Assembly: GCA_001914405.1 (NCBI GenBank)
Contig: MSDW01000001.1
Span: forward strand, 1,054,001-1,118,000
Length of the DNA: 64,000 nucleotides
Reading direction: 5' to 3'
DNA from: Candidatus Methanohalarchaeum thermophilum
Lineage (GTDB): Archaea; Halobacteriota; Methanonatronarchaeia; Methanonatronarchaeales; Methanonatronarchaeaceae
In this document: piece after piece, positions 45,915 through 62,284 of the stretch
How the letters are laid out: each line of letters opens with the position of its first letter
Position numbering within the stretch: position 1 is the stretch's first letter
Notes under the pieces: model-generated
Seen by the model: only the letters and a program-made list of their open reading frames with translations
Told to the model about the DNA's origin: nothing
Databases searched by the model: none
Made by a program: the position numbers and the translations under genes

Positions 45915-45998
45915 GTTTGAAGAATAGTTTAGAACTTTACTTTTTTGGAAAAGATGGCAAAAAACAGTTTTTTATAACCTCGAACAGGAGGGAAGGGG

Positions 45999-48869
45999 AT
46001 TTTTGAAGATCTAAAACTAAGTAGAAGAAATTTTTTGAAAGCAACGGCAATGACGTCTGCTGCAGGACTAGCAAGCTATTATTCATCTAGAGAAATGGTA
46101 GAAGGCCCGATTGGTGAAGTAAATGCTTCCCCGGAGAGCGAAGAAAAGTTAGTTCCAACGATATGTTCTTTTTGTGCAATAGGATGTGGTTTTAAAGCCA
46201 GAGTAAAAGATGGCGAACTCGTGGGACAAGAACCCTGGTATGATAACCCAATAAACCAAGGAGGACAATGCTCAAAAGGACAAGCAAGTATACAAGAAGC
46301 AAAGAACGAGAAAAGAATAAAACACCCACTAAAGAAAGTAGACGGTGAATGGCAGCGAGTAACCTGGGACGAAGCACTAACTGAGATATCAAACCAATTA
46401 CAAGATTATAGAGAAGAATCAGGTCCAGACTCAGTTTATTGGATGGGCTCAGCTAAGATGAGTAACGAAGAATCTTATATGTTCAGAAAATTAGCAGCAT
46501 TCTGGGGAACAAACAATGTCGACCACCAAGCCAGGATTTGTCACTCCACAACAGTAGCAGGATTAGCTAACACATGGGGATACGGAGCACAAACGAACCA
46601 CTCAAATGACATACAAAACACAGATTGTGCTTTCTTTATTGGATCAAACGCTGCCGAATGTCATCCAGCTCTAATGAAAAATGTACTAAAAGCAAAAGAA
46701 AATGGAGCAAAAGTAGTTGTAGCAGATCCAAGAAGAACTAAGACAGCATCAAAAGCAGATCTATATGTTCCATTTAGATCTGGTACAGATGTCCCATTAC
46801 TGATGTATGTACTCAAAAGAGCTATTGAATCCGATTCCTACGACAAAAAAATGGTAGAAGAAAGAACATATGGCTTTGCAGCACTACAAGAAGCAGTTAA
46901 AGACTATGACCTTGAAACAGTTCACAACATCACTGGTACACCAAAAGACAAACTAAAAGAATTAGCTGAAGTTCTTATAAGTAACAGCGGTAGCGCAGGT
47001 CCAATGACCTTAATCTACTCAATGGGATCAACTCAACACAGCAATGGAGCCCAAAACACGAGATTATATTGTATACTTCAACTAGTTCTTGGAAATGCAG
47101 CAACTCCAGGAGGAGGAGTAAACGCCCTTAGAGGACATGATAATGTACAAGGCGCAACTGATATGTGTATTCTTTCACATACTTTACCAGCCTACTATGG
47201 CCTATCTGAAAGCGCTTGGAAACACTGGTGCCGTGTCTGGGATGTAGATTACGACTGGATGAAAAGTAGGTTTGAAAACCAAGAACTAATGGGTAAACCA
47301 GGTTTCACCGTAGCTCGTTGGTTTGAAGGAGTACTAAAGGATCCAGAGGAAATAGATCAACCTAATAACCTTAGAGCCATATTTGTATGGGGCCATAGCT
47401 TAAATAGTGTCTCTGAAATGGTCAGAGAGAAAAAAGCACTTGATGAAATAGATCTGGCTGTAGTAGTCGATCCATATCCATCAGCAGCAGCTGCACTCTC
47501 AGACAGAGATAACAACCTATATGTACTACCAGCAGCCACAAGATTTGAATCTGAAGGAAGTGTTACAAACAGTGGAAGGCAACAACAGTGGAGATTTAAA
47601 CCGGTAGATCCTTACTACAACAGCAAAACCGACAAGGAAATAATGATAGAATTAGCCAAGAAACTAGGATTTGGAGATAAATTCACAAAAAACATTGATG
47701 GAGACTGGACAGAGCTACCGGAGGATATAACAAGAGAGATAAATAAAGGAGCAAGAACGATCCAGATGAGTGGAGGAACCCCAGAGATTCTAAAAGGACA
47801 TATGAAAAACGCTGGAGACTTTGATACCACAACTCTAAGAGCTGAGGGAGGCCCATACGATGGAGATTATTGGGGTAAGCCGTGGCCATGTTGGAATGAA
47901 GACCACCCAGGAACACCTATTCTCTACAGAAACGATATTCCTGTAAGCGAAGGAGGCCACGATGTTAGAGTTAGATGGGGTCCAGAATCACCTGATAAGC
48001 AATCCATAGAAGAAGGATTAAACGACCAGATGAAAGACATAGTAGAGCCAGTGTCAAAGGAACTAGCAAACCAAACAATGCTCTCCGGCCAAAATGGACA
48101 TGACCAATTAACGGAGAGATACAACAACAATCATTGGGCTTATGACTTAGAAACAGATTACAAACAGGCAGTTGAGAACAACTTAGTACCAAGCGGAAGA
48201 GGAAGAGCCAGAATATATGTTTGGTCCTGGGCAAACGATGGTGGAGACGGAGTACCAGTACATAGAGAACCAATAAACAGCCCAGAACCTGGATTAATTG
48301 AGGAATGGCCAACATACGAAGACTTAGATAACCAATATAGGGTTAAAACTGAATTTAAATCCGCTCAACAAGAAAGAAAAAATGATAGCGAAGATTATCC
48401 TTTTGTCTTAACTACTGGAAGAGTAGTTGAACACATGGGTGGCGGAGGAGCTACCAGACAAGAATGGTGGTTAGTTGAAAGAAGCCCAGAAGTATATGTT
48501 GAAATAAACCCAAGTGACGCAAACGACCTAGATATCGAAAACGATGACTGGGTATGGGTTAAGAGCAAAGAAGGAAAAGCAAAAGTAAAAGCAAAGGTCA
48601 CTCCAAGACCAATGGAAGGCCTAGTTTTTATACCATACCACTGGTTTGGGTACTTCCAAGGAGAAGACAGAACAGACGAATACCCAGAAGGCAGCGTTCC
48701 ATATGGTATAGGAGAACCAGCAAATGGCGTAACTAACTACGGATACGCTTGGACGACTCAAATGCAAGAAACCAAGGCAGGATTGTGTAGCGTGGAAAAA
48801 GCAAGCGATCAATCAGCTCCAGGAGAAAAAGGATTCTCTTGGGATGAAGAGAATAATCGCATAGGATAA
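45999..48869 (+). CDS. fdhA: Formate dehydrogenase catalytic (molybdopterin) subunit, TAT-exported, AUU start
   Basis: The enzyme oxidises formate at a Mo/W bis-pterin centre. Read from ATT (45999), the protein has 956 residues and begins with a perfect twin-arginine signal, KLSRRNFLKATAMTSAAGLA. Without that start the frame opens only at an in-signal TTG. GGAGGG ends six bases before ATT. The [4Fe-4S] cysteines are CSFCAIGC and GGQCSKGQ (56, 59, 63, 91). The active site is QARICHSTTVAGL, so Cys181 replaces selenocysteine and the next His is kept, as in formate dehydrogenase rather than DMSO or nitrate reductase. The protein should work on the outer face. The ATT could instead mark a sequencing frameshift at the T-run. 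Confidence 0.87.
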   Translation: MFEDLKLSRRNFLKATAMTSAAGLASYYSSREMVEGPIGEVNASPESEEKLVPTICSFCAIGCGFKARVKDGELVGQEPWYDNPINQGGQCSKGQASIQEAKNEKRIKHPLKKVDGEWQRVTWDEALTEISNQLQDYREESGPDSVYWMGSAKMSNEESYMFRKLAAFWGTNNVDHQARICHSTTVAGLANTWGYGAQTNHSNDIQNTDCAFFIGSNAAECHPALMKNVLKAKENGAKVVVADPRRTKTASKADLYVPFRSGTDVPLLMYVLKRAIESDSYDKKMVEERTYGFAALQEAVKDYDLETVHNITGTPKDKLKELAEVLISNSGSAGPMTLIYSMGSTQHSNGAQNTRLYCILQLVLGNAATPGGGVNALRGHDNVQGATDMCILSHTLPAYYGLSESAWKHWCRVWDVDYDWMKSRFENQELMGKPGFTVARWFEGVLKDPEEIDQPNNLRAIFVWGHSLNSVSEMVREKKALDEIDLAVVVDPYPSAAAALSDRDNNLYVLPAATRFESEGSVTNSGRQQQWRFKPVDPYYNSKTDKEIMIELAKKLGFGDKFTKNIDGDWTELPEDITREINKGARTIQMSGGTPEILKGHMKNAGDFDTTTLRAEGGPYDGDYWGKPWPCWNEDHPGTPILYRNDIPVSEGGHDVRVRWGPESPDKQSIEEGLNDQMKDIVEPVSKELANQTMLSGQNGHDQLTERYNNNHWAYDLETDYKQAVENNLVPSGRGRARIYVWSWANDGGDGVPVHREPINSPEPGLIEEWPTYEDLDNQYRVKTEFKSAQQERKNDSEDYPFVLTTGRVVEHMGGGGATRQEWWLVERSPEVYVEINPSDANDLDIENDDWVWVKSKEGKAKVKAKVTPRPMEGLVFIPYHWFGYFQGEDRTDEYPEGSVPYGIGEPANGVTNYGYAWTTQMQETKAGLCSVEKASDQSAPGEKGFSWDEENNRIG

Positions 48870-48886: not shown

Positions 48887-49402
48887 ATGGCCGATGTTAG
48901 ATACAAATTTGGTTTTGATCAGGATCGATGCATAGACTGTGGAGGATGCGAAATAGCGTGCAAAAGAGAAAATGATGTTCCTCCAGGTGTTTTTAGGAGA
49001 AAAGTAGTCACTCTAAACGAAGGAGAACCCAATGAAGCTTATGTGAGCTTAGCCTGCATGCACTGCACCGACGCTCCATGCATACCAGCATGTCCAGTTG
49101 ACGCTCTCTCTCAGAGAGATGATGGCATAGTCCTTGTTGACAAAGACAAATGCATAGGATGCGGTTACTGTCTCTGGGCTTGTCCATTTGGAGCACCACA
49201 GTTCCCGAAATCAGGGAAATTTGGAAGTAAGGGCCCAATGGATAAATGTGATTACTGTGTTGACCGGATAGATGAAGGAAAAAGACCAGCCTGTGAGCAA
49301 TGTCCAACTGAAGCTCTTTTAGCAGGAGATGCATCCGAGATATCCAGAAAAATTAGGGAAAGAATTGGGACAGAGATGGATGGAGGTTACGTATCTCCTT
49401 AA
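48887..49402 (+). CDS. fdhB: Formate dehydrogenase iron-sulfur subunit (four [4Fe-4S])
   Basis: 171 residues of the NrfC/FdnH electron-transfer type. The four cysteine groups are CIDCGGCEIACKRENDVPPG, CMHCTDAPCIPACP, CIGCGYCLWACPFGAPQFP and CDYCVDRIDEG...CEQCP. No signal peptide or membrane anchor is present, so it would travel with the TAT-exported catalytic subunit (hitchhiking), as in other formate dehydrogenases-N. E. coli FdnH has a C-terminal membrane helix that is missing here; the separate small membrane gene at 49442 may replace it. Preceded by AAAGGAGGAAAACAAA. Confidence 0.93.
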   Translation: MADVRYKFGFDQDRCIDCGGCEIACKRENDVPPGVFRRKVVTLNEGEPNEAYVSLACMHCTDAPCIPACPVDALSQRDDGIVLVDKDKCIGCGYCLWACPFGAPQFPKSGKFGSKGPMDKCDYCVDRIDEGKRPACEQCPTEALLAGDASEISRKIRERIGTEMDGGYVSP

Positions 49403-49441
49403 ATCCCTTTTTTTATATCGATGAAACCAAGGGAAGATAAA

Positions 49442-49765
49442 ATGAATGTAAAAGACATATCTACGATTTCACTGATCGCAGGGATAGCAGCCATATTACT
49501 TGTCGTAGGATTTATAGGGCTAGGTGGAAAGGACCTCAATACGGAGATAAGTAGATTTCCAGGACAGGATTATATAGATGATAACGGGACCTCTGCAACT
49601 AATCCATTTTTAGGATCCAGTAATCCCACAAGTTACATACAATCAATTGAACAGTCACAAATGGTTAAAAAAGTTATGAAATTTGTTATAGTGCTAGGAG
49701 GAGCTATGATAGCTTTTTTAGCAGTTTTAGAGAAATTAGACTGGAGAAGACAAAATGTCAATTGA
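49442..49765 (+). CDS. Small membrane subunit of the formate dehydrogenase, uncharacterised
   Basis: 107 residues from ATG 49442 (an in-frame ATG at 49421 is also possible). It has one N-terminal helix (ISLIAGIAAILLVVGFIGLG), a polar loop of about 45 residues (SRFPGQDYIDDNGTSATNPF) and a C-terminal helix (FVIVLGGAMIAFLAVLEKLD). It is placed between the iron-sulfur and cytochrome genes and overlaps the latter by 11 bases, so it is likely a stabilising or anchoring subunit that replaces the missing helix of FdnH. I do not recognise its family. Confidence 0.68.
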   Translation: MNVKDISTISLIAGIAAILLVVGFIGLGGKDLNTEISRFPGQDYIDDNGTSATNPFLGSSNPTSYIQSIEQSQMVKKVMKFVIVLGGAMIAFLAVLEKLDWRRQNVN

Positions 49766-50396
49766 AGAAACAATAAAAAGATTTTCACCTCAACAAATAA
49801 GCGTCCACTTCCTTTACGGTACATCGGTTCTAATTCTGTACATTACGGGTTTACCAATATTCTTTTCTGAGGAACTATCGTGGATTCCTACATTACTTGG
49901 AGGCTACGAGGTCACAATGATCTTGCATAGGTTAGCAGCTATAGGCATGATAACATCAGTCTCCTATTACTTCGTATTCTCTTTAGTCTACGCTATTTCA
50001 ATTGACTCAAAAGTATTTACAAATATACTTATAACAAAAAAAGACATCAAAAATTCAATAGAAGATATCAAAAACATATTTAAGGGAAAAAGTGAAGAAG
50101 TCAGCGAAGAAAAATACAGTTATAGACAGAAACTAGACGTCTGGATAATAGCTGCAGAAGCAGTTATTTTCATACTAACAGGACTAATGCTGTGGAAACC
50201 TACCTTTTTCATAGGGACGTTCTTCAAAAAGGAAGCAATGCTATCGATTAGATATATACATGGAGCTTTCGCTATATTAAGTCTAGCAGGACTGCTTTTC
50301 CACTACATGGAAACTCACTTATCCCCAAGCGAATATCCATTAGATAAAACAATTTTTACGGGAAAAGAATCAACAAAAGAACTTGAAGAAACCTAA
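49755..50396 (+). CDS. Formate dehydrogenase cytochrome b (gamma) subunit
   Basis: 213 residues with four hydrophobic helices, as in di-haem FdnI-type cytochrome b. Candidate haem ligands are His in ISVHFLYGTSVLILYITG, MILHRLAAIGMITS and YIHGAFAILSLAGLLFHYME. WKPTFFIGTFFKKEAMLSIR is the loop before the last helices. It would take electrons from the iron-sulfur subunit and pass them to a quinone or membrane electron carrier, possibly methanophenazine or menaquinone depending on the organism. The start overlaps the previous gene. Confidence 0.86.
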   Translation: MSIEETIKRFSPQQISVHFLYGTSVLILYITGLPIFFSEELSWIPTLLGGYEVTMILHRLAAIGMITSVSYYFVFSLVYAISIDSKVFTNILITKKDIKNSIEDIKNIFKGKSEEVSEEKYSYRQKLDVWIIAAEAVIFILTGLMLWKPTFFIGTFFKKEAMLSIRYIHGAFAILSLAGLLFHYMETHLSPSEYPLDKTIFTGKESTKELEET

Positions 50397-50666: not shown

Positions 50667-51272
50667 ATGAAATCGGCCGTAATTTTGGCTGGAGGCGAGA
50701 GTTCTAGATTTGTTTCAGATAAAGCTTTTTACGAAGTAAAGGATAAACCAATGATCCAGTATGTAGTTGATAAGATCTCCAGTATAACGGATCAAGTTTT
50801 AATAGTAGCAGGAAACAGAAAAGAGGAATCAAGATTGCGTTCGAAAGTTAATGGAGTCGATATATTTACAAGAGATCCCGTAGAGGACTATGGCCCTGTA
50901 GCTGGAATATACTCTGGCCTAAAGAGATCAGATGGAGATTATACGGCACTCGTAGCGTGTGATATGCCATTTATTAAGCCAAAAATCTTTAAATTACTTT
51001 TTAATGAAATAGGCAGTTACGATGCAATTATTCCTATACACAAAAATGGATACACGGAAAACCTACATTCTGTATTAAAAACAGATATTGCAGTACAAGC
51101 TGTTGAAAAAACATATAAAAGAAATCAAAAACGAATAAAAGCAGTTGTAGATAAGATTAATACATTATATTATCCAGTTGAAGAAATAAAAATATATGAT
51201 AAAGGATTAACTACTTTCACTAATATAAATTACACTACAGATCTAAAAAACAACTTGGAGGAGTTTAATTGA
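50667..51272 (+). CDS. mobA: Molybdenum cofactor guanylyltransferase MobA
   Basis: 201 residues. The nucleotidyltransferase start is VILAGGESSRFVSDKAFYEV. A GDP-binding LVACDMPFIKPKIFK, EDYGPVAGIYSGLKRSDGDY and IIPIHKNGYTENLHSVL follow, as in MobA. It attaches GMP to molybdopterin, giving the dinucleotide used by the dehydrogenase. It ends in TTGA overlapping the next gene. GAGGT lies 7 bases before the ATG. Confidence 0.92.
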   Translation: MKSAVILAGGESSRFVSDKAFYEVKDKPMIQYVVDKISSITDQVLIVAGNRKEESRLRSKVNGVDIFTRDPVEDYGPVAGIYSGLKRSDGDYTALVACDMPFIKPKIFKLLFNEIGSYDAIIPIHKNGYTENLHSVLKTDIAVQAVEKTYKRNQKRIKAVVDKINTLYYPVEEIKIYDKGLTTFTNINYTTDLKNNLEEFN

Positions 51273-53275
51273 AAATAGGTCTTTTTTTGTGTAACTGTAA
51301 AAACCTAGTTGAAATCAAATATAAAGATATTAAGGGTATAGAAGGAATAGATGTAGTAGAATTATCCGAGAACCTTTGCTCGGAAGATGGAAAAAATACT
51401 GTTAAAAAGGATATAGAGAGAAACGACTTAGATCATGTAATTATTGGTTGTCCTTATCCAAAGGATGACTACAAAACTGAATTGGAATTAGAGCCAAATA
51501 AAATACATTTCCTTGATGTTAGAGATCTTACTCTAATACCCCATGGCGAAAAATCACATAAGACCACTAAGAAATTAGTTAGAGCGTATAAGAAGAAGCT
51601 AGAATTAACTGAACCGGATGAAGAGGTAGATGTAGAACTTGGAGATCGATTAATTTTTTATGCGACCTCTTCCTCAGATGTAGTACTAGCCGAGTTATTA
51701 TCAGATTTATTTGAAGTTAAATTGGTTATTGGAAAAGATGTTGATGAAAAAATAATTGAATCTAGATTAGATGTATATAAGGGACAGATAAATAAAATAA
51801 ACGGGGATTTAGGTGATTTCAGGGTCGAAATAAACCAAAATAGGAATATAGACTTTAATAAATGCAATGACTGTGGAAAATGTAAAATAATCTGTCCTCA
51901 GAACGCTATTTCTGATAATCTTTTTATTGGAGATGAATGTGATGATTGTGTTAAATGCCTAGAATCCTGTCCAACGAATGCGATTACCCTAGAGGATAAG
52001 AAAGTAACTTTAAGAGCAGATCAAGTGGTTGTAGGAGAAAAAACTGAGTATGAAACCAAGGATCAATTTGGTATCTACGACCTAGATAAACAGAACGCTT
52101 ACAAAGTTATAAAAGAAGCTCTTTCGAAGAGAAATGGCTATAGTACACTAAATAAATTAGATATAAAGAGGGATAAGTGTGCTGCAATAGGTATGGGGGA
52201 TTTAGAAGGATGCAGCCTCTGTATAGATGAATGCCCAGAAAATGCAATATCCATCTCCAGTGAGAATAAAATAGAATTTAACTTATTAGAATGTAATTAC
52301 TGTGGCCTATGCCAGAGCCTATGTCCTCTCTCAGTGGTAGAGGTTAAAGGAAGTAATAACGAGATTGTATTAAGCCAGGTCGATGAAGTCTTAAAGGACA
52401 ACACCGGGTTTTTCGGGAGTTCACTAAAAAAGAATGTCGTAATATTCAGCTCCCCTGATTACTACGAGGAACTAATCTCTTTAGGTAAAGAAACAAGAGA
52501 TCTACCACCTGTAATTCCCTTAAAGACATCATCTAAAGCAATTACTAACTCAATGGTGCTTGGATCCATACTAAAAGGCATAGATAAGGTAATAGTAGCA
52601 GGTGAAGTCTCGAATAGGTTATTATTATCTAAAAAAATATTAGAAAAACTAGATCTCGAGGAACACCTCAAGATAATAGATAAACAAAACAAAGATAATT
52701 TGAGAGAGAAACTATGGGATATATATAACTCAGCACCTAAGAACAGCTTAAAAAACACTTCAAAAGAAATAAAATCCTTTGAAAATAGATCTTCTTTCAT
52801 AAATTTCTCCCAGAAGCTCTCCAAGGAAACTGGAACAGACCTCGGAGAATTCGAGGAAATCGAACAACCATTCGCAGTGATCTCTATAGACGATGGATGC
52901 ACTTTATGTGGAGCATGCGTCAATGTATGTCCCACAGAAGCTCTTAGAAAATACAAAAAGGAAATAAGCTTCAAACATGAAGACTGCATAAACTGTGGAT
53001 TGTGTGAAAAGGCCTGTCCAGAAGACTGCCTAGAGATAGAACAAAAACTCGATTTCAATGACCTCAAAGAAAAAGAGATATGGAAAGCTGAAATGATTAG
53101 ATGTAAAAACTGTGGTAAACCCTTTATGTCCAAATCTGCTTTTAAAAGAGTAAAAGATAAACTAAATGGAAAAAAAGGCGTATTTCAAGAAAACGAAAGA
53201 TTAGAAGTTATGAAATACTGCGAAGAATGTAAATCAAAAGTAGCGTTAGAAAAAATATTGGGGGACAAAAAATGA
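51269..53275 (+). CDS. Polyferredoxin-like protein with six [4Fe-4S] motifs
   Basis: 668 residues. Residues 1-120 are a Rossmann-like segment with MKIGLFLCNCKNLVEI and VIIGCPYPKDDY, similar to HdrA-related proteins. Six ferredoxin motifs follow: CNDCGKCKIICP, CDDCVKCLESCP, CAAIGMGDLEGCSLCIDECP, CNYCGLCQSLCP, CTLCGACVNVCP and CINCGLCEKACP. The C-terminus has a zinc-like CKNCG...CEECK. No membrane segment. It may supply or remove electrons between a soluble pool and the dehydrogenase or its maturation. The third motif has an unusual insertion (CAAIGMGDLEGC). It overlaps mobA and the chaperone gene. Confidence 0.8.
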   Translation: MKIGLFLCNCKNLVEIKYKDIKGIEGIDVVELSENLCSEDGKNTVKKDIERNDLDHVIIGCPYPKDDYKTELELEPNKIHFLDVRDLTLIPHGEKSHKTTKKLVRAYKKKLELTEPDEEVDVELGDRLIFYATSSSDVVLAELLSDLFEVKLVIGKDVDEKIIESRLDVYKGQINKINGDLGDFRVEINQNRNIDFNKCNDCGKCKIICPQNAISDNLFIGDECDDCVKCLESCPTNAITLEDKKVTLRADQVVVGEKTEYETKDQFGIYDLDKQNAYKVIKEALSKRNGYSTLNKLDIKRDKCAAIGMGDLEGCSLCIDECPENAISISSENKIEFNLLECNYCGLCQSLCPLSVVEVKGSNNEIVLSQVDEVLKDNTGFFGSSLKKNVVIFSSPDYYEELISLGKETRDLPPVIPLKTSSKAITNSMVLGSILKGIDKVIVAGEVSNRLLLSKKILEKLDLEEHLKIIDKQNKDNLREKLWDIYNSAPKNSLKNTSKEIKSFENRSSFINFSQKLSKETGTDLGEFEEIEQPFAVISIDDGCTLCGACVNVCPTEALRKYKKEISFKHEDCINCGLCEKACPEDCLEIEQKLDFNDLKEKEIWKAEMIRCKNCGKPFMSKSAFKRVKDKLNGKKGVFQENERLEVMKYCEECKSKVALEKILGDKK

Positions 53276-53919
53276 CAAATAAAAAAGAACTAAATTCATT
53301 TAGGAACCATTTTTATAGTTTTTTAAGCAGATTATACTTAGAAGAAATCAGCAAATCAATGGCTAAAGATATTGCAGAAAACAAATTCCCAATACCAGAT
53401 CCCGAAGAAAACACCTGGATGAATAAAGACATGGAGAAAGGATTCGAGATTCTCCAGGAATATATAAAAAGCAACGAAGACCCAGAAAAAATAAAACACC
53501 AATTAGATGTAGAGTATACAAGCCTATTCCACGGACCGGTCTCAAAGGACCTATATCCCTACGAGTCATATTACATAGACAATGAATTAAGAAGCGACTC
53601 CTTACTAGAGGTTAAAGAATTCCTAAGAGAAATTAACTACGGAAAAAGCGATGACTTCCCAGAGCCGGAAGACTTTATCGCATTCGAACTAGAAATAATG
53701 CGGTTTTTAACCAATAAACCCGAATTCATCGAAGAAAAAGAAACAATCTATAAACAAAAAGAATTTCTAAGAGATCATTTAATCACTTGGATCCCAGATT
53801 TCTGTGACGATCTCTACGAAAAAACAGACTCAGATTTCTACAAGGCCACATCACTAATTACTAAAGGATTTTTAGAATTTGAAAAAGAATTCATCGGAAA
53901 GATAGAAAAGAGGAAATAA
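53272..53919 (+). CDS. TorD-like molybdoenzyme chaperone
   Basis: 215 residues of helical TorD/DmsD type. Signals are RNHFYSFLSRLYLEEISKSM, LDVEYTSLFHGPVSKDLYPY then ESYYIDNELRSDS, and DDFPEPEDFIAFELEIMRFL. These proteins bind the twin-arginine signal and the apo-enzyme before export. It overlaps the polyferredoxin gene by four bases. Together with the TAT signal on the catalytic subunit this supports a folded export route. Confidence 0.86.
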   Translation: MTNKKELNSFRNHFYSFLSRLYLEEISKSMAKDIAENKFPIPDPEENTWMNKDMEKGFEILQEYIKSNEDPEKIKHQLDVEYTSLFHGPVSKDLYPYESYYIDNELRSDSLLEVKEFLREINYGKSDDFPEPEDFIAFELEIMRFLTNKPEFIEEKETIYKQKEFLRDHLITWIPDFCDDLYEKTDSDFYKATSLITKGFLEFEKEFIGKIEKRK

Positions 53920-53920
53920 A

Positions 53921-54184
53921 ATGGTAGAAGTTGGATGCCCCTCCTGTGGAACTGAACACCAACTAGAAAAAAAAGAGGAAAACGATCTTAATGTTATAGG
54001 AGAATGCTGTGAATGGTTTTTTGTTCAGATCAGCATCAGAGACGAAGAACGAATAATAGACCAGGAACCAAAGAAACAAAACTTAAGCAACTGCAAATTC
54101 TATATAATCTACTCAGGAGAAAGAAACGAGATATTAGCCGTTAACCAAAAAGACTACAATGAAAAAATTAATAGAGAAAACTAA
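53921..54184 (+). CDS. Small cysteine-rich protein, uncharacterised
   Basis: 87 residues, not recognised. Cysteines occur as CPSC near the start, ECCEW in the middle and SNCKF later, so a metal or disulfide site is possible. It is directly after the chaperone (one base apart). It may assist maturation, but that is inference. Confidence 0.6.
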   Translation: MVEVGCPSCGTEHQLEKKEENDLNVIGECCEWFFVQISIRDEERIIDQEPKKQNLSNCKFYIIYSGERNEILAVNQKDYNEKINREN

Positions 54185-54210
54185 AAGATAATTGGAAGAA
54201 TCAGTTGGAA

Positions 54211-55398
54211 ATGTCCTTAATAAAAGATCTATCAGAAATAAGAAAAGAATTCCCCGTTTTAGATAAAGTAGTTTATTTAGATAATGCAGCAACCAGTCTA
54301 ACACCTGAACCCGTTCTAAAAGAATTAATAGAATACAATAGAAACTATAGAGCCAACATAGAAAGAGGAGTCCACCACCTATCAAAAATAGCTACGCACA
54401 GATACAAAGATGCACATCTCAAGGTAGCCGAACTCCTAGGAGCCGAAGAAGAAGAAATTGTATTTCTAAAAAACACTACAGAAGCAATCAACACAGTTGC
54501 AAGAGGCCTAGATATCAAAAAAGGCGAAAACATAGTATGTTCTTCAATGAGCCATCACTCGAATATACTCCCATGGCAAAGGATCCGGGATCAAAAAGAC
54601 ATAAACTTGAAATTTGCCAACCCTAAAAAAGGAACAGTAGATGAAAAAGAGATTAAAAAACTAATCAATGAAGATACCAAACTAGTAGCTATATCACACG
54701 CCTCCAATGTCACAGGCAGCCTGAATCCAATTAAATCAATCTCAAACTACTGTGAAGAAAAAGGTGCTTACTTCCTAATAGATGCAGCACAAACCGCAGC
54801 CCACACCCCAATTGATGTCAGCGAAATCAGATGTGATTTTTTGTGTGCATCCGGACACAAAATGCTGGCTCCAACGGGAACAGGATTACTATATGTAAAA
54901 AAAGAACATTACGATGAATTAGAGCCACTCTCACTGGGAGGCGGACATGTAAGGGAGGTAACCCTAAGTAATTATTCAACAAAAGATGGATACGAGGGCT
55001 TGGAAGCAGGAACACCTAACATTGGAGGCGGAATAGCGCTAGGAAAAGCAGCAGATTACCTTAGAGAAATAGGATTAAATAAAATCAGAGACCACGAAAA
55101 AAAGTTAACAAACTATTTGTTGAGACAGCTCACAGAAATAAACGAGATAGAAGTAGTCTACCCTGAAGTAGAGCGAGTAGGAGTTGTTTCTTTTTACATT
55201 GAAGAGATAGATGCCCATACTTTAGCTCAACTATTAGACCAAGAAAATGTAATAGTTAGATCAGGAGATCATTGCTCTCAACCACTTCTAAGGCAACTAG
55301 GATACGATAAATTAGTCAGAGTTTCATTATCATTTTATAACACATTAGAAGACATAAATAAATTAATTGGATCAATGGAAGATATTCTTAGAGGGTAA
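54211..55398 (+). CDS. sufS: Cysteine desulfurase (SufS/Csd type)
   Basis: The enzyme moves sulfur from cysteine as persulfide. PLP Lys lies in LCASGHKMLAPTGTG. The active Cys is in VIVRSGDHCSQPLLRQL. Other family marks are VVYLDNAATSLTPEPVLKEL, SSMSHHSNILPWQ and SHASNVTGSLNPI. From the ATG at 54211 the protein has 395 residues; the TTG at 54205 is a less likely start. It likely supplies sulfur to FdhD and to the many iron-sulfur clusters of this operon. Position right before fdhD fits sulfur relay IscS-to-FdhD known from E. coli. Confidence 0.9.
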   Translation: MSLIKDLSEIRKEFPVLDKVVYLDNAATSLTPEPVLKELIEYNRNYRANIERGVHHLSKIATHRYKDAHLKVAELLGAEEEEIVFLKNTTEAINTVARGLDIKKGENIVCSSMSHHSNILPWQRIRDQKDINLKFANPKKGTVDEKEIKKLINEDTKLVAISHASNVTGSLNPIKSISNYCEEKGAYFLIDAAQTAAHTPIDVSEIRCDFLCASGHKMLAPTGTGLLYVKKEHYDELEPLSLGGGHVREVTLSNYSTKDGYEGLEAGTPNIGGGIALGKAADYLREIGLNKIRDHEKKLTNYLLRQLTEINEIEVVYPEVERVGVVSFYIEEIDAHTLAQLLDQENVIVRSGDHCSQPLLRQLGYDKLVRVSLSFYNTLEDINKLIGSMEDILRG

Positions 55399-55404
55399 AT
55401 ATAG

Positions 55405-56130
55405 ATGTGGAAACAGATAAAATGCCTTAAAGATAAGGAAGAACCTTTTATAGAACTACCAATCGAGAAACCCCTGAGAATCTACTTAAATGGAAGAAAA
55501 CTAACTACTGCCATGGTCTCACCAACTAATGAAAAATCATTCGTGATAGGCCATCTCTTTTCAGAAGGAATTATCAGCGACTACGATGATATAGAATCAA
55601 TAAGAATTGACGGTAAAGAATCAAGCGTCCTATCTGAAAAAGCATCTTTTAGAGAATCAGAAGGATTAATTGTTAGCGGTTGCGGATCAGGAAACGCATA
55701 CAATATAGATACTCCAGAGGTTGAACCAAGATTAGAGATAAACATTAAACAGATAAGTGATGCAATGATAGAGCTATTAGAGAAATTCAAAAACGAGTCG
55801 GGAGGCGTTCACTCGGCTGGATTATTCAGTAAAGAAAAAAAATTCCTAGTAAGAGATATAGGAAGACACAACTGTATCGATAAAATAATAGGCATGGGCG
55901 TCAAAAACGAAATCGATTTCTCCCAAACCTTTGTAGTAAGCACAGGAAGACTTTCCTCAGACATGGTAAAAAAATGTGCAAATGTAGGTATACCCATAGC
56001 AGCATCACACAAATCATCAACATCTCTAGCCGTAGAAATAGCACAAAAATCAAAAATCTCATTAATAATAGATACAGGAACCAACAACTACATCCTAACA
56101 AACTTCGGACAAATAAAAAAGAATAAATAA
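55405..56130 (+). CDS. fdhD: FdhD sulfurtransferase for formate dehydrogenase cofactor
   Basis: 241 residues. FdhD receives sulfur from a desulfurase and sulfurates the Mo/W centre, an essential step for formate dehydrogenase. Marks are KSFVIGHLFSEGIISDYDDI, the SGCGSGN segment, GGVHSAGLFSKEKKFLVRDI and GRHNCIDKIIG. In E. coli the sulfur loop is CGVC; here SGCGSG keeps only the first cysteine, a single-Cys variant. The gene is six bases after sufS, so the sulfur relay is encoded as a pair. It closes the operon. Confidence 0.92.
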   Translation: MWKQIKCLKDKEEPFIELPIEKPLRIYLNGRKLTTAMVSPTNEKSFVIGHLFSEGIISDYDDIESIRIDGKESSVLSEKASFRESEGLIVSGCGSGNAYNIDTPEVEPRLEINIKQISDAMIELLEKFKNESGGVHSAGLFSKEKKFLVRDIGRHNCIDKIIGMGVKNEIDFSQTFVVSTGRLSSDMVKKCANVGIPIAASHKSSTSLAVEIAQKSKISLIIDTGTNNYILTNFGQIKKNK

Positions 56131-58079: not shown

Positions 58080-59053
58080 CAACTAGGACAAAAAACAGAG
58101 GTTCACTTATTTATACAAGTAATGGAACAAAAATGTTCTGGATTACTTAGAAGGACGGAGTCACGAAGAAAGAAGAAACAAATACAACCTAAACACAGTT
58201 TATATACAGAAAGATAAGCAACTAAGGATAAAAGGCAACCTTGGAGAACAACCCATCTATATAATGAATCAAACTCTCAAGATAAAGAAAACCGATAATG
58301 AATTAGTTGATTACTTTGCAAGCATTCCTGTTCACTCATATGAAAGGGTTTAGTTACCGATTAAAATACTTGAGAAACATAAGCAAACAATTAAAGATTG
58401 AGAGATAATCTATGAACCTAAAGGTGTTTTAGCTATTGTTCTAGGAAGTAGGTGGATTGGAGTTGAGGTCTGTGGCTTCGACAACAAGCCACTGTTCATG
58501 GGAGAAAAGATACGAGAAACGAGAGCCAAATACCAATATCTAAGGAAACAGGTTCAAGAAAGAGGGATGGAGGGCAAATTCAAGAGAAAAGAATAGAATA
58601 AAGTCGATGACTTGATTCATAAGATAACGAAGTGGTTAGCTAAATTTGCAGGAAAAAACAAGTTAGCAATAGAAACAGGAGACATAAAAAGACATAAATA
58701 GAGAAACAGGAAAAGGAAAAGGAAAAGAATTTATTCGAAGAGTAAACACCATGCCCACTCATAAATTCAAGAAATATCTTAAATACAAATGTAATGAAAG
58801 AGGCGTTCCATTTGTTTTAGTTGATAAAGCATGTACTACACAACCCTGTAGTCGATGTAATGAGAGAGTTGGAAGACTAAATAATAAGGAATTCGAATAC
58901 CCAAATTGTGGATTAAAAATCCACGCAGACCGTAATGGTGCTATAAATATTAAGGAACGAGGCTTGGACAAGCTTGATTTAGAGCCTCTGCCTATGCTAT
59001 GGGCGTCCTTGACAACGCCTAAAACCCTGAACCCAGTATTAATTACGCTATAG
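58080..59053 (+). pseudogene. Decayed TnpB (IS605 OrfB) with zinc ribbon
   Basis: Pieces in order: KYNLNTVYIQKDKQLRIKGN, ELVDYFASIPVHSYERV, KGVLAIVLGSRWIGVEVCGF, then AKYQYLRKQVQERGMEGKFK and KITKWLAKFAGKNKLAIETG. An open 100-codon end (58751-59053) has CTTQPCSRCNERVGR and HADRNGAINIKERGLDK, the zinc ribbon and final RuvC motif. The first RuvC Asp (GIDLG in active copies) reads GVEVCG and one zinc cysteine is changed (EYPNCG), so no active nuclease. The last residues (TTPKTLNPVLITL) may reflect the element end. Confidence 0.83.
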
Positions 59054-59157: not shown

Positions 59158-61101
59158 TCAAATTTGTATCTGTTTTCCTGTTTTTTCATAGGCTTTTATG
59201 CCACTGTATTCTGATAGCTTGTTTTTGAATTTTTCAGTTCTTATTTTTTTAATTAGGGTTTTTACTATTGTTTTTGAGTAACTGTTTTTGTTTATTAAGA
59301 AATCATATTCTTCTGTATCTAGTTTAATGAAATCTAGGTTATTTTTTTCAGCAAAATATTTGATTCCTATTCCTGCATCGGCTTTTCCTAATTTAACGGC
59401 TGAACCGACTCCAGAGTGTGTTTTGGAAGAAGTGTTGTATCCTTTAATTTCTTTTTTTATTTCTTCTATGTCTTTTTTGTCTTTATTGGCTATTTTTTGA
59501 AGTTTTAGGTCAAGATACCGCCTTGTTCCGGATCCTTTGTTTCTGTTAATTAATCTTACATCTTTATTTATTAAATCTCTAAGGTTCTTGATGTTCTTGG
59601 GATTTCCTTTCTCAACTAATATGCCTTGTTCTCTTAGATAACCTTTTATGAGGATTGTATCCGTCATTTTATTTTTCTTTAATAGGGGTAGGTTGTATTC
59701 TCCTTCTTCTGATATATAATGAGCTCCTGCCACATCTGCAATATTTTTGGATATCATTCTGAATCCTCCTCGTGAACCTACATGGATAGACTTAACTGAG
59801 CCATTCAACATCTTTCTGATTAAGTCGATTCCGATGCAGTGGCTGCCGATAATAAGTATATCAGGTAGATCTATGTTCTTTGAAAACAATTGAACTTCTT
59901 TTTTAGCTCCAGCTTGAATGTAATTTTCTTCTTCAGGTATTTCTATAACTCCTTCAGCTTGTGAAAGAGATGAAATAGCACCGGAGCCTTTCTCTATGGG
60001 ATAGACAAGAAACTTATTGTTTCTTTTTACGAGGCCAACTGGATGAAAATGTCTTCTACCACTGGTAGAACGGACTTTAACTGCTGTTTCTGCTTTTATT
60101 TTATTTGTCTCAGTTTTTTTACCTATTAATTGATGTATTAATGGAGCTATTAGTAAATTAAATATCGTTAAAGCTGATGTAGGATACCCAGGGAGACCTA
60201 TTACTATTTTGTCTTCTAACTTAGCACAGATAGTAGGTTTACCTGGTTTAACGGCTACTCCATGGAAGATTATTTCCCCTTCTTTAAGGACATCGTGTAG
60301 TAAATCACTGGAACCTGCTGAAGTTGAACCTGAGGTCAATAATAGATCGCACTCGGAAATTCCTCTCTTTATTTTTTCTTCTATTTTTTCTCTATCGTCA
60401 CCTACAATACCGTAAAATCTGGGTTTACCACCAGCTTCAATTATGGCGCTCTGTATCGAGTAGGAGTTGGTGTCAAAGATCTGGCCGTCTTTAATTTTAT
60501 CTCCTGGATTTCTTAGCTCTTCTCCTATTGATAAAACCCCTACCTTCGGTTTAGAGTATACTTCGACCTCTTTTCTACCTATTGCACCTAAAACACCTAT
60601 ATCCCTGGGATTTAGTTTTTTATCCTTGGAAAGTACCTTCTCACCTGCCATCATGTCGCTACCTGCGTACATTATATTATCTGCAGGTGCAACAGATTTC
60701 CTTACCTTAATTCCTTCGTTATTATCTTCCTCATCTATGTATTCGATCATTACAACTGCATTTGCTCCATCTGGCATAACTGCTCCAGTAGCAACCTCAA
60801 CAGCTTCTCCATTGTGTACGGATATATTTTTATTGTCTCCTGGAAAGATTTCTCCCTTTTTTTTAAGTGAAATAGGGTTATCCTCTCTAGCACTAAAAGT
60901 ATCTGAAGCCTTAACTGCATAACCGTCTTTAGCTGCTCTATCAAAAGGAGGAACATCGACCTTGGTATAAATGTCTTCAGCTAACTTAAGGTTAGAGCAT
61001 TCCTGTATATCTTTTAATTCTTTATTACGATCAAATTGGCTAAATAATTTTTTCTTAGCTTTTTCAAGAGATATAAGGTCTCTAAATTCTATTCTATTCA
61101 A
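59158..61101 (-). CDS. moeA: MoeA fused to a periplasmic-binding-like (PBP) domain
   Basis: 647 residues. The first ~400 residues are MoeA: FDRAAKDGYAVKASDTF, GEAVEVATGAVMPDGANAVV, KPKVGVLSIGEELRNPGDKI, CDLLLTSGSTSAGSSDLLHD and GLPGYPTSALTIFNLLIAP. The C-terminal ~230 residues are a substrate-binding (LysR/molybdate-binding like) domain, with ILIIGSHCIGIDLIRKMLNG, NRNKGSGTRRYLDLKLQKIA and AVKLGKADAGIGIKYF. MoeA inserts molybdenum or tungsten into molybdopterin; the PBP domain may bind metal or oxyanion. It overlaps the second moeA by eight bases. Confidence 0.92.
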   Translation of the reverse strand: MNRIEFRDLISLEKAKKKLFSQFDRNKELKDIQECSNLKLAEDIYTKVDVPPFDRAAKDGYAVKASDTFSAREDNPISLKKKGEIFPGDNKNISVHNGEAVEVATGAVMPDGANAVVMIEYIDEEDNNEGIKVRKSVAPADNIMYAGSDMMAGEKVLSKDKKLNPRDIGVLGAIGRKEVEVYSKPKVGVLSIGEELRNPGDKIKDGQIFDTNSYSIQSAIIEAGGKPRFYGIVGDDREKIEEKIKRGISECDLLLTSGSTSAGSSDLLHDVLKEGEIIFHGVAVKPGKPTICAKLEDKIVIGLPGYPTSALTIFNLLIAPLIHQLIGKKTETNKIKAETAVKVRSTSGRRHFHPVGLVKRNNKFLVYPIEKGSGAISSLSQAEGVIEIPEEENYIQAGAKKEVQLFSKNIDLPDILIIGSHCIGIDLIRKMLNGSVKSIHVGSRGGFRMISKNIADVAGAHYISEEGEYNLPLLKKNKMTDTILIKGYLREQGILVEKGNPKNIKNLRDLINKDVRLINRNKGSGTRRYLDLKLQKIANKDKKDIEEIKKEIKGYNTSSKTHSGVGSAVKLGKADAGIGIKYFAEKNNLDFIKLDTEEYDFLINKNSYSKTIVKTLIKKIRTEKFKNKLSEYSGIKAYEKTGKQIQI

Positions 61102-62284
61102 AAAGAAATACCTCCACTTTTTGTCCTTTATCTAATCCTTCAGTTTCTTCATTAATAGAAACAAAACCATCTGAGGAAGTTAATGTAGATTGAATACCAG
61201 AACCTGAAGTCCTGATTGGAACTGCCTGTCTTCCTTCAATTGAGACACGAGTAAATGTCCTGAAACCTACCTTTGATTCTATTTTCCTAGATAAATACGC
61301 ATCCGTAGAACGAAGACCTAGATCCTTTTTATTAGCTAACTTTAAGAGAGCAGGCCTCATAAAAAGCTGAGCTGAAATAAAACAAGCAACAGGATGACCA
61401 GGAAGACAAATAACGGGAATATCATCATACATTCCAAGTAAAGTAGGTTTACCTGGCTTAATCCCTATACCATGCGACGAAATTTCCCCATGTTCTTTAA
61501 CAACCTTGGCAGTGTGATCTCTTTCACCAACTGATGTACCCCCACTAAAAACAACCAAATCAAATTTTTTTCCTTTCTTTAAAGCTTCATATAATCTCTT
61601 AGGGGTATCTCCAACAATATCGTGCTTAGAAACAAGAGCATCTAACCTCTCAGCTATAACCTTGATCACGAGAGAATTACTCTCTATAACCTCTCCTGGC
61701 CCAGGATCTCCATCTCTTGGAACAACTTCATTTCCAGTAGGAACAACCAGAACCCTTGGTCTTCTAAAAACCTCAACCTCTGGAACCTGAAGGCTTCTTA
61801 GCAACCCCAAATCAAATGGCCTTAACTCTTGGCCTTTTTGAAAAATCAATTCCCCTTCTTCCACATCCTCACCAACTAAGTCAACATTTTCGCTTGGAGA
61901 TATAGCTTTAAAAACCTGCAGCCGTTTCCCATTTTTCTCTGTGTCCTCGATCTTTACTACAGCATCCGCTTCACTAGGGATAGCAGACCCAGTATGAACT
62001 TTTTCAGCTCCCTTATCACCAGGATCTTTATCCAGATCTAATGTAATAGGACTTGAACTTCCTCCACCATATGTATCTGATGCCTTAACGGCAAACCCAT
62101 CCATAGCTGCTCTTTCAAAACTAGGAATAGGATTAGGAGAAGATAAATCAGAAGCTAATACCCTACTATCTGATTCTTCTAACCTAACCTCTTTTTTTTC
62201 ATTAATTGATTTAATAGACTCTAAGAAATCTCTTTTTGCTTTTTTAAATTCTGTTAGTTTTTGAAAGCCATCTCTAATTTGCAT
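61094..62284 (-). CDS. moeA: MoeA, second copy without PBP domain
   Basis: 396 residues. Motifs are PSFERAAMDGFAVKASDTYG, VHTGSAIPSEADAVVKIEDT, RPRVLVVPTGNEVVPRDGDP, FDLVVFSGGTSVGERDHTAK and GIGIKPGKPTLLGMYDDIPV with CLPGHPVACFISAQLFMRPA. It is a full MoeA and lies upstream of the fused copy in one unit. Two moeA genes are usual in archaea that use molybdenum and tungsten or that need different metal loading; this organism's choice of metal cannot be read. Confidence 0.94.
   Translation of the reverse strand: MQIRDGFQKLTEFKKAKRDFLESIKSINEKKEVRLEESDSRVLASDLSSPNPIPSFERAAMDGFAVKASDTYGGGSSSPITLDLDKDPGDKGAEKVHTGSAIPSEADAVVKIEDTEKNGKRLQVFKAISPSENVDLVGEDVEEGELIFQKGQELRPFDLGLLRSLQVPEVEVFRRPRVLVVPTGNEVVPRDGDPGPGEVIESNSLVIKVIAERLDALVSKHDIVGDTPKRLYEALKKGKKFDLVVFSGGTSVGERDHTAKVVKEHGEISSHGIGIKPGKPTLLGMYDDIPVICLPGHPVACFISAQLFMRPALLKLANKKDLGLRSTDAYLSRKIESKVGFRTFTRVSIEGRQAVPIRTSGSGIQSTLTSSDGFVSINEETEGLDKGQKVEVFLFE

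Follow-up and report, generated by a model that had tools for sequence, protein, structure and literature searches.

A predicted flavin-free HdrA-MvhD-like polyferredoxin linked to TorD and Tat-exported formate dehydrogenase in archaea and proteobacteria

What does a large ferredoxin-like protein do among the maturation genes of an exported formate dehydrogenase (FDH)? The question is raised by a stretch of 64,000 nucleotides from Candidatus Methanohalarchaeum thermophilum (assembly GCA_001914405.1, contig MSDW01000001.1, positions 1,054,001 to 1,118,000 of the forward strand; hereafter, the window), where an FDH operon includes an open reading frame (ORF) for a protein with six [4Fe-4S] motifs, here called the polyferredoxin. 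An initial interpretation made from the letters of the window, the sequence-only reading, had regarded this gene as unusual for such operons. We found instead that it is a regular companion of torD. The delivery of the Fe-S cluster and molybdenum cofactor to FDHs exported by twin-arginine translocation (Tat) is only partly known past FdhD, FdhE and the TorD-like chaperones, and the polyferredoxin, a torD companion across archaea and proteobacteria whose gene is open to deletion in culturable bacteria, offers a specific candidate for a missing step.

Linkage to torD and exported formate dehydrogenase

The polyferredoxin ORF (51269-53275, forward strand) starts with TTG, encodes 668 residues and shares 4 nucleotides with each of its neighbours, mobA and torD, so that the position read from the sequence stands. 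Of 392 sampled genomes from the phylum, 65 contain a match at the threshold E 1e-12, and torD lies within 2 kb of it in at least 61 of these. No torD is listed nearby for the other four (G024, G025, G082 and G227), two of which, G082 and G227, have matches to short C-terminal stretches only (69 and 150 residues). The polyferredoxin is found in 36 of the 39 genomes bearing FdhA at the threshold E 1e-150 (Fisher p 1.5e-29; table 36, 3, 29, 324), and the assemblies of the three without it (G242, G286 and G320) are either fragmented or incomplete. This threshold misses weaker or split haloarchaeal matches and so accounts for some of the 29 genomes that have the polyferredoxin but no FdhA. Thus, the distribution is broad but linked to molybdoenzymes; a broad distribution unlinked to them was what the sequence-only reading had expected to count against its proposal.

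The named loci, the best 80 of 188 relatives, show the same linkage: 75 of them have torD and 67 have fdhA, and when only the 62 loci flanked by 3 kb or more on each side are counted, each gene is present in 58. These loci overlap with those of the whole-genome sample (e.g., L040 and L128 are one contig), and the counts are not independent. They include members from Methanophagales (ANME-1), Methanocellales, Syntrophoarchaeum, Ethanoperedens, Methanoperedens and many haloarchaea. The polyferredoxin gene and torD share a strand in all 76 pairs (the window and 75 named loci), and in 68 of these the gap between them is estimated at 100 nucleotides or fewer. On the side of the enzyme, a strict pattern finds the Tat twin-arginine motif in 59 of 67 FdhA N-termini, and five inspected cases among the eight failures read SRRTFTK, likewise a twin-arginine motif. 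The membrane anchor beside the linked genes varies, being a cytochrome b561 in the window and L041 and DmsC-like in L042; the linkage tracks the chaperone and cofactor genes, not any single anchor type. Exported FDHs, some with DmsC-like genes, have been described in five ANME-1 genomes (Chadwick et al., PMC9012536); the passages of that paper on these enzymes do not mention the polyferredoxin. No relative was found on viral contigs.

A tblastn search of plasmids recovered further relatives in Alpha- and Betaproteobacteria. From 83 records of one search, some of them non-bacterial, and 36 of another, six annotated bacterial loci were examined; a Halomonas locus carried no annotation. In all six, which are proteobacterial plasmid loci, the gene is labelled "4Fe-4S binding protein" and belongs to an FDH3-type cluster with TorD; the FDH alpha subunit is inside the stretch in five, with Sinorhizobium having only a small FDH protein and TorD. 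The Diaphorobacter order is 4Fe-4S protein, TorD, MobA, and in the betaproteobacterium Variovorax the gene overlaps torD by 4 nucleotides, as in the window; in the other four loci, the two genes are divergently oriented and separated by a few kb. Aligned with hhalign, the archaeal profile matches the bacterial one over 626 columns (E 7.7e-74, probability 100), a full-length relationship. The bacterial proteins of the FDH3 clusters thus resemble the window protein and, like it, have TorD, FDH and MobA as neighbours. They differ in that the first ferredoxin pair is absent in three of four aligned bacterial members and in that their loci are accompanied by DUF3305/DUF3306 genes. A haloarchaeal form is annotated as "hydrogenase iron-sulfur subunit", and the family records inspected assign no function. 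By sequence and neighbourhood, the window protein belongs to this unnamed family of TorD-fdh "4Fe-4S binding proteins".

The passages of Bay et al. (2015, PMC4464133) on TorD-fdh operons report hypothetical ferredoxins in 43% of them and label a gene "fer4" in the legend of their Fig. 2. From gene position, we infer that the archaeal and bacterial polyferredoxin genes would be this "fer4". Together, the linkage to torD and FDH in both domains of life and the ferredoxins of those operons make the gene a regular, uncharacterised member of the operon type, not an oddity; the contrary view does not hold for FDHs of the TorD-linked, Tat-exported kind.

Domain architecture and cysteine conservation

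The polyferredoxin lacks a full-length Pfam or NCBIfam family. Fer4-type families of Pfam match down to E 2.4e-24, and EFR1 ferredoxin (96.9 bits, cut-off 75) and FdxA_fam (78.5 bits, cut-off 65) also score; all of these cover ferredoxin modules only and were rejected as full identities. Profile searches, an alignment of 26 archaeal rows (the window protein plus 25 relatives, a selection from the available loci) and structure models resolve the following parts, all on the forward strand:

51269..51613, forward: HdrA-like N-terminal domain, residues 1-115, with C8, C10, C37 and C61 (match to the HdrA N-terminus profile)
51614..52168, forward: shortened HdrA flavin domain without the FAD motif, holding clusters 1 and 2 (C199-C234, 51863-51970; structure match of residues 124-290 to HdrA)
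52178..52324, forward: HdrA C-terminal-type ferredoxin, clusters 3 and 4 (C304-C352), with an atypical C-x10-C (profile, alignment)
52421..52768, forward: MvhD/FlpD-like domain, residues 385-500, cysteine-free (MvhD profile; VIA Z 12.5 and 12.4)
52898..53017, forward: HycF/NuoI-like 2[4Fe-4S] ferredoxin, clusters 5 and 6 (C544-C583; 7z0s_F profile)
53102..53230, forward: zinc-like CxxC...CxxC site, C612, C615, C651 and C654 (invariant in 26 of 26 archaeal rows)

An HdrA-like N-terminus had been proposed from the sequence and is upheld by the match of residues 3-147 to 5odc_A (E 1.3e-12) and of the 26-row profile to HdrA chains (E 8e-45); the resemblance, however, is not limited to the N-terminus and extends to about residue 377. 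An AlphaFold2 model (mean pLDDT 84.2, pTM 0.80) agrees, with residues 1-376 superposing on the HdrA chain 8rvy_A over 367 residues (VIA Z 13.8, rmsd 4.0; Foldseek E 7.7e-19). Most of the HdrA flavin domain is gone, as 369 aligned residues from positions 1-377 of the model stretch over HdrA 4-652, and the FAD motif GxGxx[GA] is missing from the window protein and present in one of the 26 rows (L034). That relative (L034, 1483-3654) retains a GGGAVG motif of the FAD type and is possibly an intermediate between HdrA and the flavin-free form. The MvhD/FlpD-like stretch was overlooked in the sequence-only reading, as was a possible seventh N-terminal cluster. This stretch matches the MvhD profile at positions 384-503 of the 26-row profile (E 9.2e-13). 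MvhD was not among the 50 Foldseek rows listed for the whole model; it surfaced after residues 383-668 were folded alone (mean pLDDT 76.1), when the domain matched 5odc_D (VIA Z 12.5, 116 residues, rmsd 2.9) and 7bkb_F of the formate dehydrogenase-Hdr-Fwd complex (Z 12.4), the matches spanning 115-116 residues at rmsd 2.8-2.9. Profile positions 552-673 match formate hydrogenlyase subunit 6 (HycF, 7z0s_F 38-164; E 7e-16). We read the polyferredoxin as a type Ia-like HdrA-MvhD chain from which the flavin was lost and to which a HycF-like tail was added, being predicted to be flavin-free by both sequence and structure model. Its supposed solubility is borne out by a Kyte-Doolittle scan, which finds no transmembrane segment (top 19-residue mean 1.39 versus 2.18 in the cytochrome b control).

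Of the 33 cysteines, 24 belong to the six [4Fe-4S] motifs, four to the N-terminal domain and four to the zinc-like site, leaving a lone C587. Motifs 1-3 are C199/202/205/209, C224/227/230/234 and C304/315/318/322, the third with the atypical spacing C-x10-C-x2-C-x3-C; motifs 4-6 are C342/345/348/352, C544/547/550/554 and C573/576/579/583. All 26 rows keep C10, C199, C202, C205, C234, C304-C352, C544, C550-C583 and C612/615/651/654, so that cluster I (C199, C202, C205, C234) and cluster VI (C573, C576, C579, C554) are complete throughout. This invariance and the strength of the Fer4 matches argue that the six-motif pattern, recognised earlier along with the C-terminal zinc-like site, is not a product of chance. 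The zinc-like site is a putative metal site, and its cysteines align with cysteines in the bacterial relatives. In the N-terminal domain, C8, C10, C37 and C61 are present in 25, 26, 25 and 22 rows, respectively, and may hold a seventh [4Fe-4S] cluster. Elsewhere, the pattern varies: C209, C224, C227 and C230 are jointly absent in all seven haloarchaeal-looking rows, and C547 in six of the seven. Each cluster of a ferredoxin usually takes three cysteines of one motif and the fourth of the other; under this rule, these rows would have lost one whole cluster. The window protein itself has no cysteine between 352 and 544, having lost the three cysteine columns of the MvhD-like domain, candidate counterparts of the [2Fe-2S] ligands of MvhD, that are present in 19-22 of the 26 rows.

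The operon in the window

Genes of the window operon, in operon order:

45978..48869, forward: fdhA, catalytic subunit (Pfam/NCBIfam); frame open from 45978, called start TTG 46035
48887..49402, forward: fdhB, FDH3-beta-like iron-sulfur subunit (NF038355, E 1.7e-64, 217.2 bits, under the cut-off of 240)
49421..49765, forward: 114-residue membrane protein with two hydrophobic stretches; no family match
49755..50396, forward: cytochrome b561-type membrane anchor (PF01292)
50667..51272, forward: mobA (Pfam/NCBIfam), overlapping the next gene by 4 nucleotides
51269..53275, forward: polyferredoxin gene, 668 residues (ORF list, 26-row alignment)
53272..53919, forward: TorD/NarJ-family chaperone (PF02613, E 1.4e-28), overlapping the preceding gene by 4 nucleotides
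53921..54184, forward: 87-residue cysteine-containing orphan; no family match
54205..55398, forward: SufS-family cysteine desulfurase (TIGR01979, E 2.9e-127, 424.9 bits, under the cut-off of 475.1)
55405..56130, forward: FdhD sulfurtransferase (PF02634, TIGR00129)

The neighbours of the polyferredoxin gene, mobA, torD, the SufS-type gene and fdhD, place it in the maturation part of the operon, as had been supposed. The Tat motif SRRNFLK (46020-46040) is in the fdhA frame, upstream of and across the called TTG 46035. This TTG thus falls inside the motif; between 45978 and it, the frame has no ATG, GTG or TTG, and the real start may be the ATT at 45999, 7 nucleotides after an AGGAGG (45986-45991). 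The gap between fdhB and cytochrome b, which holds the small membrane ORF in the window, is filled by annotated hypothetical genes in Diaphorobacter and Haladaptatus. Farther downstream, a 100-residue ORF with CxxC pairs (58751-59053) resembles by eye the zinc-ribbon end of a TnpB/OrfB-type protein, and a tandem gene pair (59158-62284) looks moeA-like, its first member having a C-terminal extension that resembles, again by eye, a periplasmic-binding-protein-like domain.

Functional interpretation

We favour, at roughly even chances, a role for the polyferredoxin as a cytoplasmic redox or Fe-S maturation partner that works with TorD before Tat export of FDH. The polyferredoxin would dock with TorD on unexported FdhA, or FdhA-FdhB, in the cytoplasm and hand over electrons or Fe-S units for the loading or reductive activation of the Fe-S cluster and the Mo-bisPGD cofactor, with MobA, SufS and FdhD of the same gene run providing nucleotide and sulfur; the loaded enzyme would then be released and exported. 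This proposal draws directly on the architecture, on the gene's coupling with torD and on the partner enzyme's Tat signal, and is favoured because the linkage spans two anchor types and a hydrogenase. Of the two functions offered by the sequence-only reading, the supply of electrons for cofactor assembly fits the neighbours best, whereas a route from the quinone side to the cytoplasm finds no direct support in view of the FdhA Tat signal and the anchor-independent linkage. The maturation step itself we infer with NapF as the analogue: this cytosolic protein with four clusters is needed for Fe-S reconstitution of Rhodobacter sphaeroides NapA in vitro prior to export, according to the passages on NapF in PMC10609526. 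Similarly, HydN and YsaA are described as increasing the dye-linked activity of FDH-H (PMC6004506). FdhE was not detected in a search of the Candidatus Methanohalarchaeum thermophilum genome; we do not claim that the polyferredoxin replaces it, because Bay et al. (PMC4464133), in their account of TorD-fdh species, place FdhD/E in trans in 97% of these.

Several observations weigh against a maturation role. A strong NapF effect is confined to R. sphaeroides, those in Escherichia coli and Wolinella being marginal, as reported in the same NapF passages (PMC10609526). The HdrA-MvhD-HycF build consists of electron-wire parts and is more elaborate than an Fe-S scaffold would need. The full cluster chain is dispensable, given that clusters vary among the haloarchaeal-looking rows. 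From gene neighbourhood, assembly and electron transfer cannot be told apart, and haloarchaeal loci often contain a nearby AOR gene, an arrangement that would fit an electron carrier as well. Both torD and fdhA are missing from the available flank of three haloarchaeal loci (L094, L099 and L118). Finally, no study or experiment on the family was found in the literature searched, most subscription papers being outside that search. Two of the three loci just named have a small protein of about 130-146 residues upstream (L094 7408-7803; L099 3585-4022) with MELRVCKHCYTG and, for the L094 protein, no Pfam family.

Rare partners other than FDH point to exported metalloenzymes more generally. In G025 (L048 2690-11106), a relative heads a [NiFe]-hydrogenase run with a small subunit bearing DRRTFLK, the large subunit, HycI, HypB and HypF, and HypD/HypE are in the same stretch; no TorD or FdhA lies beside it, and the only TorD listed for this genome is on another contig. 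In L040/L128, the polyferredoxin-torD pair adjoins hypF, hypD, hypA and hypE, and no hydrogenase was found in the genome concerned (G277, 81% complete). In L151 (8365-13459) and L152 (3841-8989), a shorter relative and TorD adjoin a gene of the AOR family and one for an Fe-S protein that carries RRRFLK (Pfam run on L151). It is conceivable, though unlikely, that TorD and the polyferredoxin form a general pre-export module for redox charging or proofreading in archaea and bacteria, in which a flavin-less HdrA-MvhD wire docks on unexported FDH, [NiFe]-hydrogenase or AOR-type tungsten enzymes and checks or sets the redox state of these enzymes ahead of transport by the Tat machinery.

The electron-wire parts also invite a second explanation, namely, that the polyferredoxin moves electrons, in either direction, between the quinone side of the FDH complex and an acceptor in the cytoplasm, for example ferredoxin. 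An HdrA/MvhD/HycF chain with six or seven clusters would suit such a conduit, and 7bkb_F, an MvhD-like protein from a formate dehydrogenase-containing complex, is among the best matches of the 385-500 domain. However, the mature FDH is expected outside, because FdhA has a Tat signal and FdhB no strong membrane stretch, and the polyferredoxin has no transmembrane segment; moreover, the linkage is independent of anchor type and recurs with a hydrogenase. We therefore regard transfer from quinone to cytoplasm as less likely than the maturation role, and as rather unlikely in itself.

The AOR-family genes raise the further possibility that the polyferredoxin carries electrons for a cytoplasmic, ferredoxin-dependent molybdenum or tungsten enzyme that shares an island with FDH by chance. 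Such a gene is found in 47 of 111 loci, mainly in haloarchaea and with duplicates such as L108/L150 included; it lies 7 nucleotides downstream of the polyferredoxin in L154 (11208-13103) and beside the shorter relative in the L151 and L152 loci. Yet in most haloarchaea it is 2-7 kb off on the opposite strand, the remaining 64 loci, ANME-1 and bacterial ones among them, have no match, and none is among the ten window proteins scanned, which makes this explanation distinctly improbable. A redox or metal sensor, or a scaffold tethering TorD to the cofactor and sulfur-transfer enzymes with no net electron transfer, would accord with the constant zinc-like site, the dispensability of several clusters among relatives and the loss of all three MvhD-like cysteine columns in the window protein, and is very unlikely because the invariance of the cysteines of cluster I, motifs 3 and 4 and cluster VI is more than a pure scaffold is expected to need.

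Comparison with known systems

In the maturation role favoured here, the polyferredoxin finds its nearest functional precedent in NapF. That protein differs from it in size and domain architecture, belongs to nap, not fdh, operons, and is ruled out as its identity by a TIGR00402 score of 48.2 bits (cut-off 102.2) that covers the ferredoxin part only. HydN and YsaA act on FDH-H, which belongs to the hydrogenlyase complex; they are small and unlike the polyferredoxin in length and architecture. Still, NapF is, like the polyferredoxin, a cytoplasmic multi-cluster protein tied to a Tat-exported Mo-bisPGD enzyme (as described in the NapF passages of PMC10609526), and HydN/YsaA are ferredoxin-like accessory proteins affecting an FDH (in the account of PMC6004506), as proposed for the polyferredoxin. 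HycF shares the 2[4Fe-4S] domain and the cysteine region that follows it with the polyferredoxin C-terminus; however, HycF is itself a small membrane-complex subunit, whereas its equivalent here forms the end of a longer soluble chain. Identity with HycF is excluded, as membrane hydrogenlyase partner genes are absent among the ten window proteins scanned.

The architectural kinship lies with the components of heterodisulfide reductase, an enzyme of the methane pathway. Two ferredoxin modules follow the N-terminal Fe-S domain of the polyferredoxin in the same order as in HdrA. It is not a true HdrA, since the FAD motif and most of the thioredoxin-reductase-like flavin domain are missing; the curated HdrA model NF041778 has no match above cut-off in the genome, and HdrB/HdrC families are absent among the ten window proteins scanned. 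The MvhD/FlpD fold is likewise present. A survey of HdrA recognises 28 classes in four types, one of which is HdrA fused to MvhD (PMC12054007), and no class without the flavin domain appears in the passages of the survey on these classes. A close parallel is this fusion (HdrA2, type Ia), which has the same order over residues 1-500, namely, N-terminal Fe-S domain, inserted ferredoxin, C-terminal ferredoxin and MvhD; relative to it, the polyferredoxin is without about 280 HdrA residues, mostly of the flavin domain, and has the added HycF-like tail. Thus, the polyferredoxin would represent the reuse of an HdrA-MvhD chain without flavin, outside heterodisulfide reduction.

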